From Cavenderia fasciculata (lineage: Eukaryota > Evosea > Eumycetozoa > Acytosteliales > Cavenderiaceae), in NCBI RefSeq assembly GCF_000203815.1, contig NW_004457635.1, positions 186,001-250,000 of the forward strand: a DNA stretch of 64,000 nucleotides. The letters are read 5' to 3'. The notes under the pieces are model-generated. The model worked only from the letters and a program-made list of their open reading frames with translations. It had not been told where the DNA came from and made no database searches. Numbering within the stretch: the first letter of the stretch is position 1; the number at the start of each line of letters is the position of its first letter. Below are positions 832 to 52,806 of the stretch, piece after piece. The position numbers were made by a program, and so were the translations under genes.

Positions 832-1794
832 ATGGTCATTCAAAGTTTATCACCATCAGAGATATATTTCATTCAACAAGGAGTTGAGAACAACTTGAGG
901 AATGATGGTCGAACAAGATTAGATTATAGACCTTTTGAATTGGATATAGGCGAGATCTCGCATGCTGTCGGGTCAAGTAGAATCATTCTAGCAGATACAC
1001 ATATATTGGTTGGCATCAAAGCTGATATATCAGCTCCCGACCCTTTAACTCCAAATAAAGGTTCTTTAACATTTTCTGTAGATTGGTATGAATGAACTAT
1101 ATGAATGAATCAACATGTCTATCTAGATAGATATAGATGATTAGTAATAGTATACTACAATTAATCTAACAAATACTTGTTTGTTTATATCAATTTTAGT
1201 TGCCCATCAGCATCACCAGAATACGAAGGTAAAGGAGCAGATTATATAAATATAGAATTAGCAAAACAATTGGAACGAGTGATGAAGGATTCAAACTCGA
1301 TGGATTTAGGTGGTTTGTGTATCATGCCAGGTAAATATTGTTGGAACTTGTATATAGACGCAATCGTACTCGACAGTGGCGGTAATCTTTTCGATGCATT
1401 GTCGATCGGTGTCAGAGCGGCACTAGCAAACACCAGACTACCAACCATTAGAATCACACAGGGCGAATACTCGACTGTCGACTTTGAAGTCTCTGACGAT
1501 CCAGAGGCAATGCAATCACTCGATATTGATGGCGTTCCCATCAATGTCACACTCACAACCATTGGCAATCAATTTGTGGTCGATTGTTCAGGCGAAGAGG
1601 AACAATGCATGGACGCTAGAATGACGATTGGCGTCAACAAACGTGGAAATATATGTGGTATTCAAAAGGGTGGAGTGGCTGGCATCGACGCACACACCAT
1701 CAATCAAATGATTTTAGCTGCCAAACAAGTTGGTTCTGAAATATTAAAGACAATGGATAATGTCTTAAAAGATCATCATATTGCTACTAAATAA
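832..1794 (+). CDS. Exosome complex component Rrp42 (EXOSC7)
   Basis: Two exons (832-1085 and 1200-1794) give a protein of about 282 residues, the usual size for this family. It is one of the six RNase PH-like ring subunits of the nuclear and cytoplasmic RNA exosome, which holds RNA for 3'-5' decay and rRNA processing. The start motif NDGRTRLDYRPFELDIGEIS and the joined segment VDCCPSASPEYEGKGADYI match the Rrp42 pattern. The stretch ALSIGVRAALANTRLP is the family's central helix. Like other ring subunits it probably lacks phosphorolytic activity. The intron starts GTATGA and ends TTTTAG and splits a Cys codon. It converges on the histone doublet with only 66 bases between stops. Confidence 0.93.
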
Positions 1795-1860: not shown

Positions 1861-2709
1861 TTATTGTTTATCTTCGTCAAGTTCAATAGATCCTTCATCT
1901 TGATCTTCAACTTCAACTGTATTATTGTCAAGTACGAAATCAACGTCGTCGTCATTGGAATGGGCAATGGCGTCGGTGGTGTTGATGAATCCAGATTGTG
2001 CCAATTCACTGTCACTGGCAATAGCCAATCTAATGTGATTTGGTGTAATACGCTACATATATGAATATAATATTGGTGAGTACAAATACTGATATACTAC
2101 TACTACTATGATGGATGTGATGTACATACAGTCTTTTCAGCTTGGAAAAGTGCAAGTTGAATTGTTTCAAAAATAACGTATTGCAAAACACCAGCCAAGA
2201 AGAAAGAGGCGTCTCTTGATGCCTTTGTCAATCCATCTCGTTGCATATCCTTTCTATAGGATGATGCGATAAATTGTTTGGTGACAGGTCTAGGTATATT
2301 TCCTTCGGCAGCGGTCGACTTGCTTCTAGTCACCTCTGACGATCCACTATAAGCTGACATTTTAGCGACATCACCATTGAATAATAATATGACTGATGCT
2401 TTAACATCCTCAGCCTTGATTGTAGATCTATTTGATTTGGTCATTTCTTGACGTGATTGATTAATTAATCTTTGTGATGTTTCTCTAAATATATATGTAT
2501 AGTTTCAAAGTGTTATATTGTAGTGTTAATACTCAATAATTCATTTATTTATTGATGACTGATGATCATCAGTATGTTACATACTTGGCAATACCAGCTA
2601 AACAGTTCATACCAGCAACAGAGATGGTTGGCTTATAGGTTAAACCAACCTCCATATTTTTAAGTATATTATTAATTGCATTTACTTCTTTTGGTGTTGT
2701 AGTTGTCAT
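1861..2709 (-). CDS. Fused H2B-H2A histone doublet
   Basis: Three exons (2709-2585, 2484-2130, 2052-1861) join in phase to 223 residues. Residues about 11-98 form an H2B-type histone fold: TISVAGMNCLAGIAKETSQR, then the loop-2 motif STIKAEDVKASVILLFNGDV and the alpha-C helix ending SSEVTRSKS. A roughly 10-residue linker leads to an H2A-type fold: RDASFFLAGVLQYVIFETIQ, then KTRITPNHIRLAIASDSEL. The rest, to residue 223, is an acidic, unstructured tail. There is no H2A docking-domain sequence and no Lys-rich N-tail. Of the six nucleosome acidic-patch positions, three seem kept (E148, D174, E176) and three changed (Q143, Q151, S175). It should act as a tethered dimer in chromatin. A divergent variant role is my inference. 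Confidence 0.85.
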
Positions 2710-3221: not shown

Positions 3222-3779
3222 TTATTTGTTCTTCTTGATACCATTTTCATAGTTGACCTTGTAGTAACTCCAGAGGGCGAATGGGAAGGCAACGGAACCA
3301 AAAGATAAAAGGATAAAGGTACCCCATTCCTTCAAGTGGAGGGAGGTTCTCTTGTCAAACTCTTCGACGCTTTCAACGTACATACCAGTGTAGCTGGCAG
3401 CAGAGGTGTGGGAGAGCTCTTCGTTTTGACTCTTACGGTATTCGAGGATGGTTGAAGTGAGTGGGAAAACACCTCCCTTGGATGGGGTGATAGTGATGGT
3501 TTGGGAAACGTTGGTGTTTGGTTCGATGACCTCCCACTTTCCGCTTGATTGTCCCTTTACAACTTCGAAATCGGCAGAGGCACCGAAATCAGTGTCAGCA
3601 AAGGAGATGTCATAGGCAGCTCCTTCACCAACATTGTAGATAATGAATGAAATGTCGAGTTCCTTTCCAACAACTGGTCCATCTGAAATCTTCTTTTGGA
3701 ACAACAAGTCGGCTCCCTTGCTTGATACTGCAACACCGACAAACAAACAAACAACTAATGCTACTAATAATCTACAGTT
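3222..3779 (-). CDS. Translocon-associated protein subunit beta (SSR2)
   Basis: The protein is a type I ER membrane subunit of the TRAP complex beside the Sec61 channel, helping signal sequences to insert. It has a signal-peptide core LLVALVVCLFVGVAVSSKG, a lumenal immunoglobulin-like beta domain with the family features GKELDISFIIYNVGEGAAYD and a PLTSTILEYR strand. A C-terminal membrane helix follows (TFILLSFGSVAFPFALWSYY) with a Lys-rich cytosolic tail. No in-frame ATG exists in this exon. Two splice acceptors fit: one at 3780-3781 gives NCRLLVA after an upstream exon that could be just an ATG at 4142-4144 followed by GTAAAT. The other at 3772-3773 would need a different first exon. The first exon is therefore unresolved. 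Confidence 0.85.
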   Translation of the reverse strand, partial: NCRLLVALVVCLFVGVAVSSKGADLLFQKKISDGPVVGKELDISFIIYNVGEGAAYDISFADTDFGASADFEVVKGQSSGKWEVIEPNTNVSQTITITPSKGGVFPLTSTILEYRKSQNEELSHTSAASYTGMYVESVEEFDKRTSLHLKEWGTFILLSFGSVAFPFALWSYYKVNYENGIKKNK

Positions 3780-50962: not shown

Positions 50963-52806
50963 ATGGAAATCATACAAGAGCAAAATTTAATATTTGCAAA
51001 CTATAACAAAAATAAGAATAATGGATTACTATCGTCCTATGTCAAGCCAACGCTAGACGAAAATAACAAATACAAGAGAGTAGCACATTCGATGAATCCC
51101 AGCCTTAAAAATAGCAATAATAGTCTCTCAACATCGCCAATCACCACTCCTCCACAAGAACAACAATTATCATCATCAAATCCAACTTCAGACTATGAAA
51201 ATGATTCATCTTCAGACATTGAATCTTCATCTTCCAAACCCCATGATAATGATGAAAAGTAAGTAAAAAGTTTAAAAATATAATATGTGTCTCCCCCAAT
51301 ATTAAATTATTAATATTGAGAAACGAGACGAGGAGAGGACAAGTCCACAAAAAATATTTTCGTTTACGAAAAAACCTCTCGTTGGAAAAAAAAAAAAAAA
51401 AGTAAGTCAAAGAAACATTCAAAATATTAATTTCTTTTTTTTTTAGGGAAATTGGATTGGTAGCAAATATATTATTAAAAATATCGTCAAAGGAGATTAC
51501 GATTGTGTCGACTAGTAGTAGTACCAGTGCAACCAGTCTTGTCCCAAATAATGACTCGCCAGTACTTGCACCAGCCAAGTTGGCCGACAGCACCAACTGT
51601 GTTCCATTTGGCGCTCTCAATTTAGATACAGAGATGGGTAATACCACGGCCACCGCAACCACAAGCACAGGAGGTAGCAGCGGAAGCCAAGGTAGCAGTC
51701 TCGCCTCCTCAACCTCATCCACACCCGTCCTCAGTGCATCGGCCACTGGTATCAACCCCGTCGTTTCAACCACCACAGCTCCAGTTGTCACTACTACTAC
51801 CACTACTACCACACCGACTTCTTTAACATCATCTTCATCTTCTACACCAACATCTATATCCGTTTCAGCATCCAACTCGTCATTGTCACTCAGTGCATCG
51901 ACCGACGCAGCCGACAAGAAAAAGAAACGTCAAAGAACCAGTCCAGAGCAACTCGCCATTTTAGAGCAAATCTTTGAGACTGACAAGATGCCCTCGCAAC
52001 AGATCCGCCATCGTTTGGCCAACCAGCTGGGCATGTCGTCGAGACGTGTCCAAATCTGGTTCCAAAACAAGCGTGCCAAGGTAAAGAGAGGCGTCTTTGG
52101 CGACAAGGACGGCGGCGACGATACCATGGACGGCGACGAAAACGACGAGCTCGATGACGACGAGTCCAACTTGACCATTGATGACGGAACCAGTATTTCC
52201 TCCTTGATTTCCTCCTCCTCACCACTTGTCCAATCGGCCGACAACATAGTCCCCTCCATCTCACCGTTGATGTTATCGACCAATGGTTCGATTGCAACAT
52301 CACACCCCCTCCTCACCACCCCAACTTCGACACTCGCCACTTTTTCCCTTTCATCTTCGTCGGGTGGAATCAACACCACCACCTTGTCCTCTCTGTCTGG
52401 CCAACCACCACTCAAGAAAAAGATGATGTCTTCATCATCGAGCTCGGTGCCCATCACAGCAAGTCACTCACCACTCTCACATCAAAAGAAGCAACACAAG
52501 TCGCGTCCAACCTCACCCACCCAATTCAATTTCACTCCAGTCTCTTTTCCCTCATCACCTTCTTCTTCCTCCTCCTCATCCCCTGTCATTGGCAGCAATA
52601 TCAAGTTGAATTCCAGTTCAATTGGAATCCCAACCTCTGTCTCTACCGCCTCTGCCTCTAGCTCTGCCTCATCACCCAACAGCAATTTTAAACAATATAA
52701 TTTTTCGTTTGATCATCATACCACCACGGCCAACAACTCGCCTCCACCTCCATCCTCTAATGAACAATACAAGGAGATTCGTTTTCACAATGTTACTTTA
52801 AAGTAA
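50963..52806 (+). CDS. Homeodomain transcription factor
   Basis: Two exons (50963-51258, 51447-52806) give 551 residues. The homeodomain lies near residues 248-306: KKKRQRTSPEQLAILEQIFE, then SQQIRHRLANQLGMSSRRVQ and the recognition helix IWFQNKRAKVKRG. It has the standard three-helix spacing and the WFQNKR core with Asn at the DNA-contact position. It is flanked by long Ser/Thr-rich tracts and an acidic stretch GDENDELDDDESN just after the homeodomain that may act in activation. No Lys at recognition-helix position 50 (a Lys-Arg pair sits further on). Similarity to one named dictyostelid homeobox gene could not be judged. Confidence 0.93.

Follow-up and report, generated by a model that had tools for sequence, protein, structure and literature searches.

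Single chains with two histone folds are already known as a kind of protein. In the Marseilleviridae, doublets such as that of Melbournevirus (PDB 7n8n chain B; mini variant 9cvt) carry H2B followed by H2A. For eukaryotes, a 2026 review (PMC13088155; this and the other papers cited by PMC number were available in part) lists double histone folds in SOS, ABTB2 and SPT3 (protists included), and in animal proteins at least 60% identical to histones; no amoebozoan H2B-H2A doublet was seen in the available part of it. Described here is a gene of the dictyostelid Cavenderia fasciculata, located in a 64,000-nucleotide stretch (hereafter the window; C20:186001-250000 of the genome), which, judging from its sequence and a predicted model of its product, very probably encodes a doublet histone of the same order. 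Overall, the locus is probably best explained as a single-chain H2B-H2A doublet of dictyostelid origin, which would serve as a weakly docking chromatin unit.

The order of the two folds matches that of the viral doublets, as the first-pass annotation of this DNA had pointed out. In sequence, the Marseilleviridae doublet is a weaker match to the window protein (E 9.4e-5) than cellular H2B-H2A (E 2.2e-13), and, unlike the viral genes, the window gene contains spliceosomal introns and groups with dictyostelid histones (Melbournevirus itself being outside the tree). The eukaryotic double folds of the SOS H domain (PDB 1q9c), ABTB2/Cca3 and SPT3 are less similar to the window protein, ABTB2/Cca3 being set apart by description. 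SOS and ABTB2 carry extra domains that are absent from it, and no Pfam match to the DH-PH and RasGEF domains of SOS is seen in its 223 residues. The animal HSIH double-histone-fold proteins (Miyake et al. 2026) are, according to the review, likewise single-domain H2B-H2A or H2A-H2B chains of eukaryotes. They are at least 60% identical to nucleosome histones, whereas the window protein shows 24-26% identity over its aligned structure matches and a sibling doublet on contig C7 (see below) 40-42% among the top matches listed. H2A.B/Bbd also lacks the docking domain, but the window protein differs in having both halves in one chain, no tails and an acidic C-terminus.

Gene structure and predicted product

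As the first-pass annotation had proposed, three exons join into a single 223-residue frame (Table 1). The product (P0001) is identical to the public predicted protein DFA_10936 of C. fasciculata, named 'Histone H2A' in UniRef. The H2B and H2A halves meet within exon 2, with no stop codon between them. When codon preference was trained on three other open frames of the window, the frame of the gene scored highest (0.238 per codon, compared with -0.076 to 0.093 in the other five frames).

Both the sequence matches and the predicted model reveal two consecutive histone folds, H2B then H2A, and the closest matches in sequence and structure are engineered single-chain H2B-H2A dimers. The two-fold model is confident, and in it the folds pack together like an H2A-H2B dimer. 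The observation of an H2B-H2A doublet in the window is confirmed. Profile comparison, which had been suggested as a check, agreed in part: the Pfam model PF00125 gave 13.5 bits, under its curated cut-off of 26.4, while the best matches were the single-chain dimers. No other Pfam domain was detected in the 223 residues, and an NCBIfam search gave nothing above cut-off.

Two further claims, that the H2A docking domain is missing and that the acidic patch is altered, both held. No residues align with the C-terminal docking domain, and there is no PF16211 match up to E 1; the eight acidic-patch sites read QEQDSE plus DS (H2B side), where the canonical residues are EEEDEE plus EE. These sites, like the H4-facing and DNA-contact sites below, are ones that we take to have the roles named. 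Reduced binding of remodellers, which the first-pass annotation expected from these changes, is a possible consequence. At the H4-facing sites of H2B, the window copy carries L80E, Y83K and R99I. All five other doublets keep R99 and have F, L, L, M and L at position 80; Lys at position 83 occurs in the C. fasciculata singlets as well. Of the presumed DNA contacts, R86-S87-T88 of H2B and R77 of H2A are kept, and R29, R32, R35 and R42 of H2A are replaced by S, K, Q and K. The R29 position, in alpha-1, is Tyr or Trp in five of the six dictyostelid doublets and Ser in the window copy. The charge of the chain is split, with an isoelectric point (pI) of 9.6 for residues 1-180, the basic fold, and 4.05 for the rest. 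Protein searches with the window protein returned only itself (one of 137 and one of 62 candidates); this type of search needs shared five-residue words, so that the result reflects divergence and not absence of relatives.

A family of doublets in two genera

The genome of C. fasciculata (31.0 Mb in 21 contigs; the one dictyostelid genome searched as DNA) was searched with the Pfam Histone model (19 matches), the window protein (12), and the doublets termed C7 (14) and C15_1 (15), and the loci were then read; the resulting counts are lower bounds. At least eight H2B-H2A doublet loci are distributed over four contigs, five of them with an intact doublet frame (C20, i.e., the window gene, C7, C15_1, C2B and C2C). 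The first-pass annotation was right to see a cellular doublet here, and its word 'rare' understates their number in this genome. The broken frames of C15_2, C15_3 and C2A reflect either decay or sequence errors. An additional match at C3:281298 (E 0.028) was taken as chance, since no histone was visible in the reading frames at that site.

Most of the sibling doublets score above the PF00125 cut-off (C7, 54.6 bits; C2B, 41.6; C2C, 56.2; and the Acytostelium doublet described below, 49.7), and C15_1 gives no match. The intact members, as read by eye from their sequences, are without long basic tails. A phase-2 intron at alignment column 77, in the H2B fold, is present in all five intact genes, and a phase-0 intron at column 224, before H2A alpha-3, in four of them, C7 being without it. 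The H2B/H2A join is inside one exon in the window gene and in C15_1; in C7, C2B and C2C a phase-1 intron lies between the halves, at column 138 in the first two and at column 164, within the gapped linker, in C2C. Of the C. fasciculata singlets that were read, two H2B frames and one H2A frame run uninterrupted from Met to stop, and an H2A.Z-like singlet appears to start in an upstream exon. The introns common to the doublets and absent from these two H2B and one H2A singlets point to descent of the five intact genes from a single ancestral doublet.

A protein search with the C7 doublet as bait, again limited by shared words, returned 35 of 669 candidates (about 200-637 residues): C7 itself, one protein of Acytostelium subglobosum and 33 proteins from metagenomes or transcripts that carry no species name. 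Dictyostelid names in this word-limited set were confined to C. fasciculata and A. subglobosum, which does not establish that Dictyostelium discoideum or other dictyostelids lack doublets. The Acytostelium doublet (SAMD00019534_041970, 251 residues) contains two Histone stretches and the H2A C-terminal domain, all above Pfam cut-offs (PF16211, 26 bits). Most of the 33 unnamed proteins look like doublets or longer histone chains, and P0030 like H2A alone (by eye); many of them may be viral.

A doublet fused to a DNA-end repair enzyme

In the C2B gene, H2A alpha-3 is followed by an acidic Asn-rich stretch and a polynucleotide kinase 3'-phosphatase (PNKP) domain (PF08645, 123.6 bits), in frame within one open stretch (1069992-1070894). 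A part resembling a kinase, with the sequence GLPASGKST (by eye), lies downstream of the phosphatase. The order in C2C is the same, but there the frame is broken in the Asn/Glu-rich repeat linker. The PNKP parts of the two genes are identical at 167 of 169 residues, the doublets at only 87 of 194, and the DNA is 94.6% identical over 1,456 columns, starting at the Asn-repeat side of PNKP. This pattern suggests that the two doublets had already diverged when recent recombination or conversion put one PNKP behind both. The third PNKP gene (C7:241.7 kb) is an ordinary one: its N-terminus is SAP-like (by eye), and in its 3.4-kb locus no frame for a histone was seen.

Table 1. Positions of the doublet genes, of the parts of the window gene and of other features mentioned in the text (positions without a contig prefix refer to the window, except in the C2 rows).
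Feature	Position	Strand	Description
Exon 1	2585..2709	-	Start codon and first part of H2B fold, residue 1 to first two bases of codon 42; from exon join, identical public protein, model helix 6-22 and start of helix 31-58
Intron 1	2485..2584	-	100 nucleotides, GTATGT..TAG, phase 2, alignment column 77; intron in same column in 4/4 other intact doublet genes
Exon 2	2130..2484	-	One uninterrupted exon: remaining H2B fold (to about residue 101, 2484-2307), linker (102-114, about 2306-2268), H2A alpha-1/alpha-2 (115-160, about 2267-2130)
Intron 2	2053..2129	-	77 nucleotides, GTATGT..TAG, phase 0, alignment column 224; intron in same column in 3/4 other intact doublet genes
Exon 3	1861..2052	-	H2A alpha-3 and next helix (161-179), docking domain not recognisable, low-confidence acidic tail (192-223), stop codon 1863-1861
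C20 doublet (window gene)	1861-2709	-	DFA_10936, intact
C7 doublet	C7:777864-778717		Model identical to DFA_07149; least diverged C. fasciculata doublet; intron exactly at H2B/H2A join
C15 doublets	C15:218403-221230		Three in tandem; C15_1 intact; C15_2 and C15_3 broken at similar positions (H2B loop 2)
C2 doublets	starts 1068164, 1069270, 1077200		Three; C2A broken, C2B and C2C intact
C2B gene	C2:1069270-1071793		Doublet followed by PNKP
C2C gene	C2:1077200-1079458		Doublet followed by PNKP, frame break in linker
Third PNKP gene	C7:240862-242770	-	Ordinary PNKP
Neighbouring frame	836-1794	+	Resembles exosome RNase PH subunit (by eye)
Neighbouring frame	3222-3779	-	Resembles translocon-associated protein beta subunit (by eye)
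Open frame	51457-52806	+	Homeobox-like stretch (by eye)

Phylogeny and origin of the doublets

A concatenated H2B+H2A tree was computed from 25 rows, comprising the six dictyostelid doublets, two C. fasciculata singlet pairs, three human or yeast pairs and 14 of the 33 unnamed proteins. These 14 metagenomic or transcript rows, of unproved origin, represent the viral side, the tree including no named Marseilleviridae or giant-virus doublet. The six dictyostelid doublets form one group (94/93), which is joined to the singlet pairs at 98/99, with bootstrap values not fully settled; after removal of the two longest branches, the remaining four hold at 98/93. In the tree of the H2B half, the doublets group with dictyostelid H2B at 100/99, and among themselves at only 82/21. 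For the H2A half, the doublets group with the canonical C. fasciculata H2A at 48/72, which is not rejected when the long branches are left out (p 0.45). A grouping with both H2A singlets is rejected (p 0.026), a result that we attribute to one of them being of the H2A.Z type; it groups with human H2A.Z at 99/92.

The H2B alpha-C motif HAIVQGM occurs in both C. fasciculata H2B singlets and in three of the six doublets (C7, C2B and Acytostelium). C2C differs from it by one residue, and it is lost in C15_1 and in the window copy. None of the 14 metagenomic rows carries it (11 have HAVSEGT or HGVSEGT), nor do the three human and yeast rows. Given the trees, the shared introns and the shared residues, the doublets very likely originated in the dictyostelid group, with the H2B and H2A genes of the host as their source, and the same evidence supports their having multiplied into a fast-changing family. 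Fusion of the two host genes within this group would be the simplest reading. As a possible order of events, the junction intron may at first have preserved the intergenic gap, with the C20 and C15 genes losing it afterwards.

Proposed role and alternative explanations

The doublet chain may act as an obligate, tail-less and self-contained H2A-H2B unit. DNA would be bound through the basic fold, and the chain, with no docking domain and with a changed H2B face towards H4, would sit weakly or briefly on H3-H4. Such docking could give rise to open or partly wrapped particles, and the acidic tail might limit residence time. The suggestion of weak or brief docking draws on the loss of the docking domain, the altered sites and the behaviour of a viral doublet missing part of the docking domain, which still assembles and wraps only about 90 bp (PMC12297534). 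This role is plausible but tentative. For the special role in spores that the first-pass annotation put forward, the analysis gave no evidence in either direction. Bolder, and in our judgement unlikely, is the wider proposal that dictyostelids build nucleosomes or nucleosome-like particles with a eukaryote-born single-chain H2B-H2A from their own genes, against a proposed ratchet that locked histones into separate proteins before the last eukaryotic common ancestor (LECA), with one doublet carrying PNKP into chromatin in the same chain.

Several points weigh against a host-derived chromatin doublet. The window gene is known here from its sequence and a predicted model, and the Acytostelium doublet as a protein alone; the roles of the H4-facing and DNA-contact sites are those that we presume. 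Three of the eight doublet loci have broken frames, so that decay is possible. The window copy itself is without HAIVQGM (GDVAKMSAYSGSSEV) and under the Pfam cut-offs, and its end branch, at 5.28 changes per column, is the longest of the doublet family. The long branches, and bootstrap values that are not fully settled, leave its exact place in the tree unsure. Furthermore, the H2A half alone gives 44/87 for one doublet group, and this half does not reject a clade with the metagenomic set (p 0.18, or 0.21 once the two long branches are left out).

The main rival to the chromatin doublet is a histone pseudodimer that has left chromatin to become a protein-binding or regulatory module, like the SOS H domain or ABTB2/Cca3. 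This is a genuine, if lesser, possibility. It is improbable that the gene is a functionless remnant of the doublet family. The very long branch of the window copy, the broken C15 and C2A frames and the lack of an ortholog in the word-limited protein searches are all compatible with decay, but the frame of 223 codons is intact, both introns are good, codon preference follows the frame and the two-fold model is confident; a neutral sequence so diverged would hardly keep its frame.

Far less probable is acquisition from a giant virus (Nucleocytoviricota), and a viral link of any kind was not supported. Amoebae are hosts of giant viruses, the order of the halves is as in the Marseilleviridae, and the H2A half alone is compatible with such a transfer. 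Against it, forcing the dictyostelid doublets into a clade with the 14 metagenomic rows makes the tree 27.3 log units worse (approximately unbiased (AU) test, p 0.0027 for both halves), and the H2B half rejects this grouping at p 0.0004. The spliceosomal introns of the window gene and the dictyostelid H2B residues in sibling doublets also speak against transfer. A scan of IMG/VR with the dictyostelid doublets yielded 50 stretches matching one of two short patterns, a weak test, of which none was confirmed by tblastn. Back-translated HAIVQGM matched eight IMG/VR contigs, all eight not histone-like by eye.

Scarcely credible, finally, is that separate adjacent H2B and H2A genes were wrongly spliced together, which accounted for the fish and bat fusions examined by Talbert et al. 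(PMC9145170) and to which the intron between the halves of C7, C2B and C2C lends some colour; for the window gene it is rejected at the sequence level because the two halves, like those of C15_1, meet within a single exon and no stop separates them. The doubt raised over the animal fusions, namely that splicing between adjacent intact histone genes had been mis-predicted, therefore does not apply to it.

Relation to published views

Current eukaryotes are stated to be without fused histones 'as a rule' (PMC10919886), and Talbert et al. 2022 (PMC9145170) regard no eukaryotic histone fusion as confirmed, though they allow that some may be real. This absence of fused histones from living eukaryotes is part of the basis for recent accounts of nucleosome origins, and a eukaryote-born doublet family would run against statements that such fusions are unobserved or unconfirmed. 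Fused H2B-H2A genes in two genera of one eukaryotic group, host-derived in look, would imply that fusion was not forbidden after LECA and that new doublets can form with no virus involved. The tail-less state of the intact members is as a tail-based barrier would predict.

No description of a dictyostelid or amoebozoan histone doublet was found among the titles and abstract starts listed from the openly licensed PMC literature, which is not proof that there is none. Within the literature searched, three things appear new: the dictyostelid lineage, its origin from the host and the fusion to PNKP. A CRISPR protocol has been applied to species including C. fasciculata and A. subglobosum, according to the available part of PMC13046832, which makes the doublets accessible to experiment, and developmental time courses of D. 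fasciculatum are listed as a supplement in that of PMC4931340.

Other observations

Several of the unnamed proteins have architectures of their own. P0014, a EukProt transcript product (c3919_g1_i1.p1), is a complete 244-residue H2B-H2A doublet from a eukaryote transcriptome; it is not dictyostelid-like and could be viral. The metagenomic chains P0004, P0009 and P0010 have FG-rich stretches next to H2B and H2A or between them, and P0026, P0029, P0031 and P0032 are four-histone chains (all by eye). In P0021, a ubiquitin domain (PF00240) precedes H2B-H2A.

A tRNA scan of the window with the bacterial code found no tRNA. The frames next to the doublet gene resemble an exosome RNase PH subunit and the translocon-associated protein beta subunit, which marks the locus as ordinary amoeba genome, and a more distant open frame of the window contains a homeobox-like stretch (Table 1).
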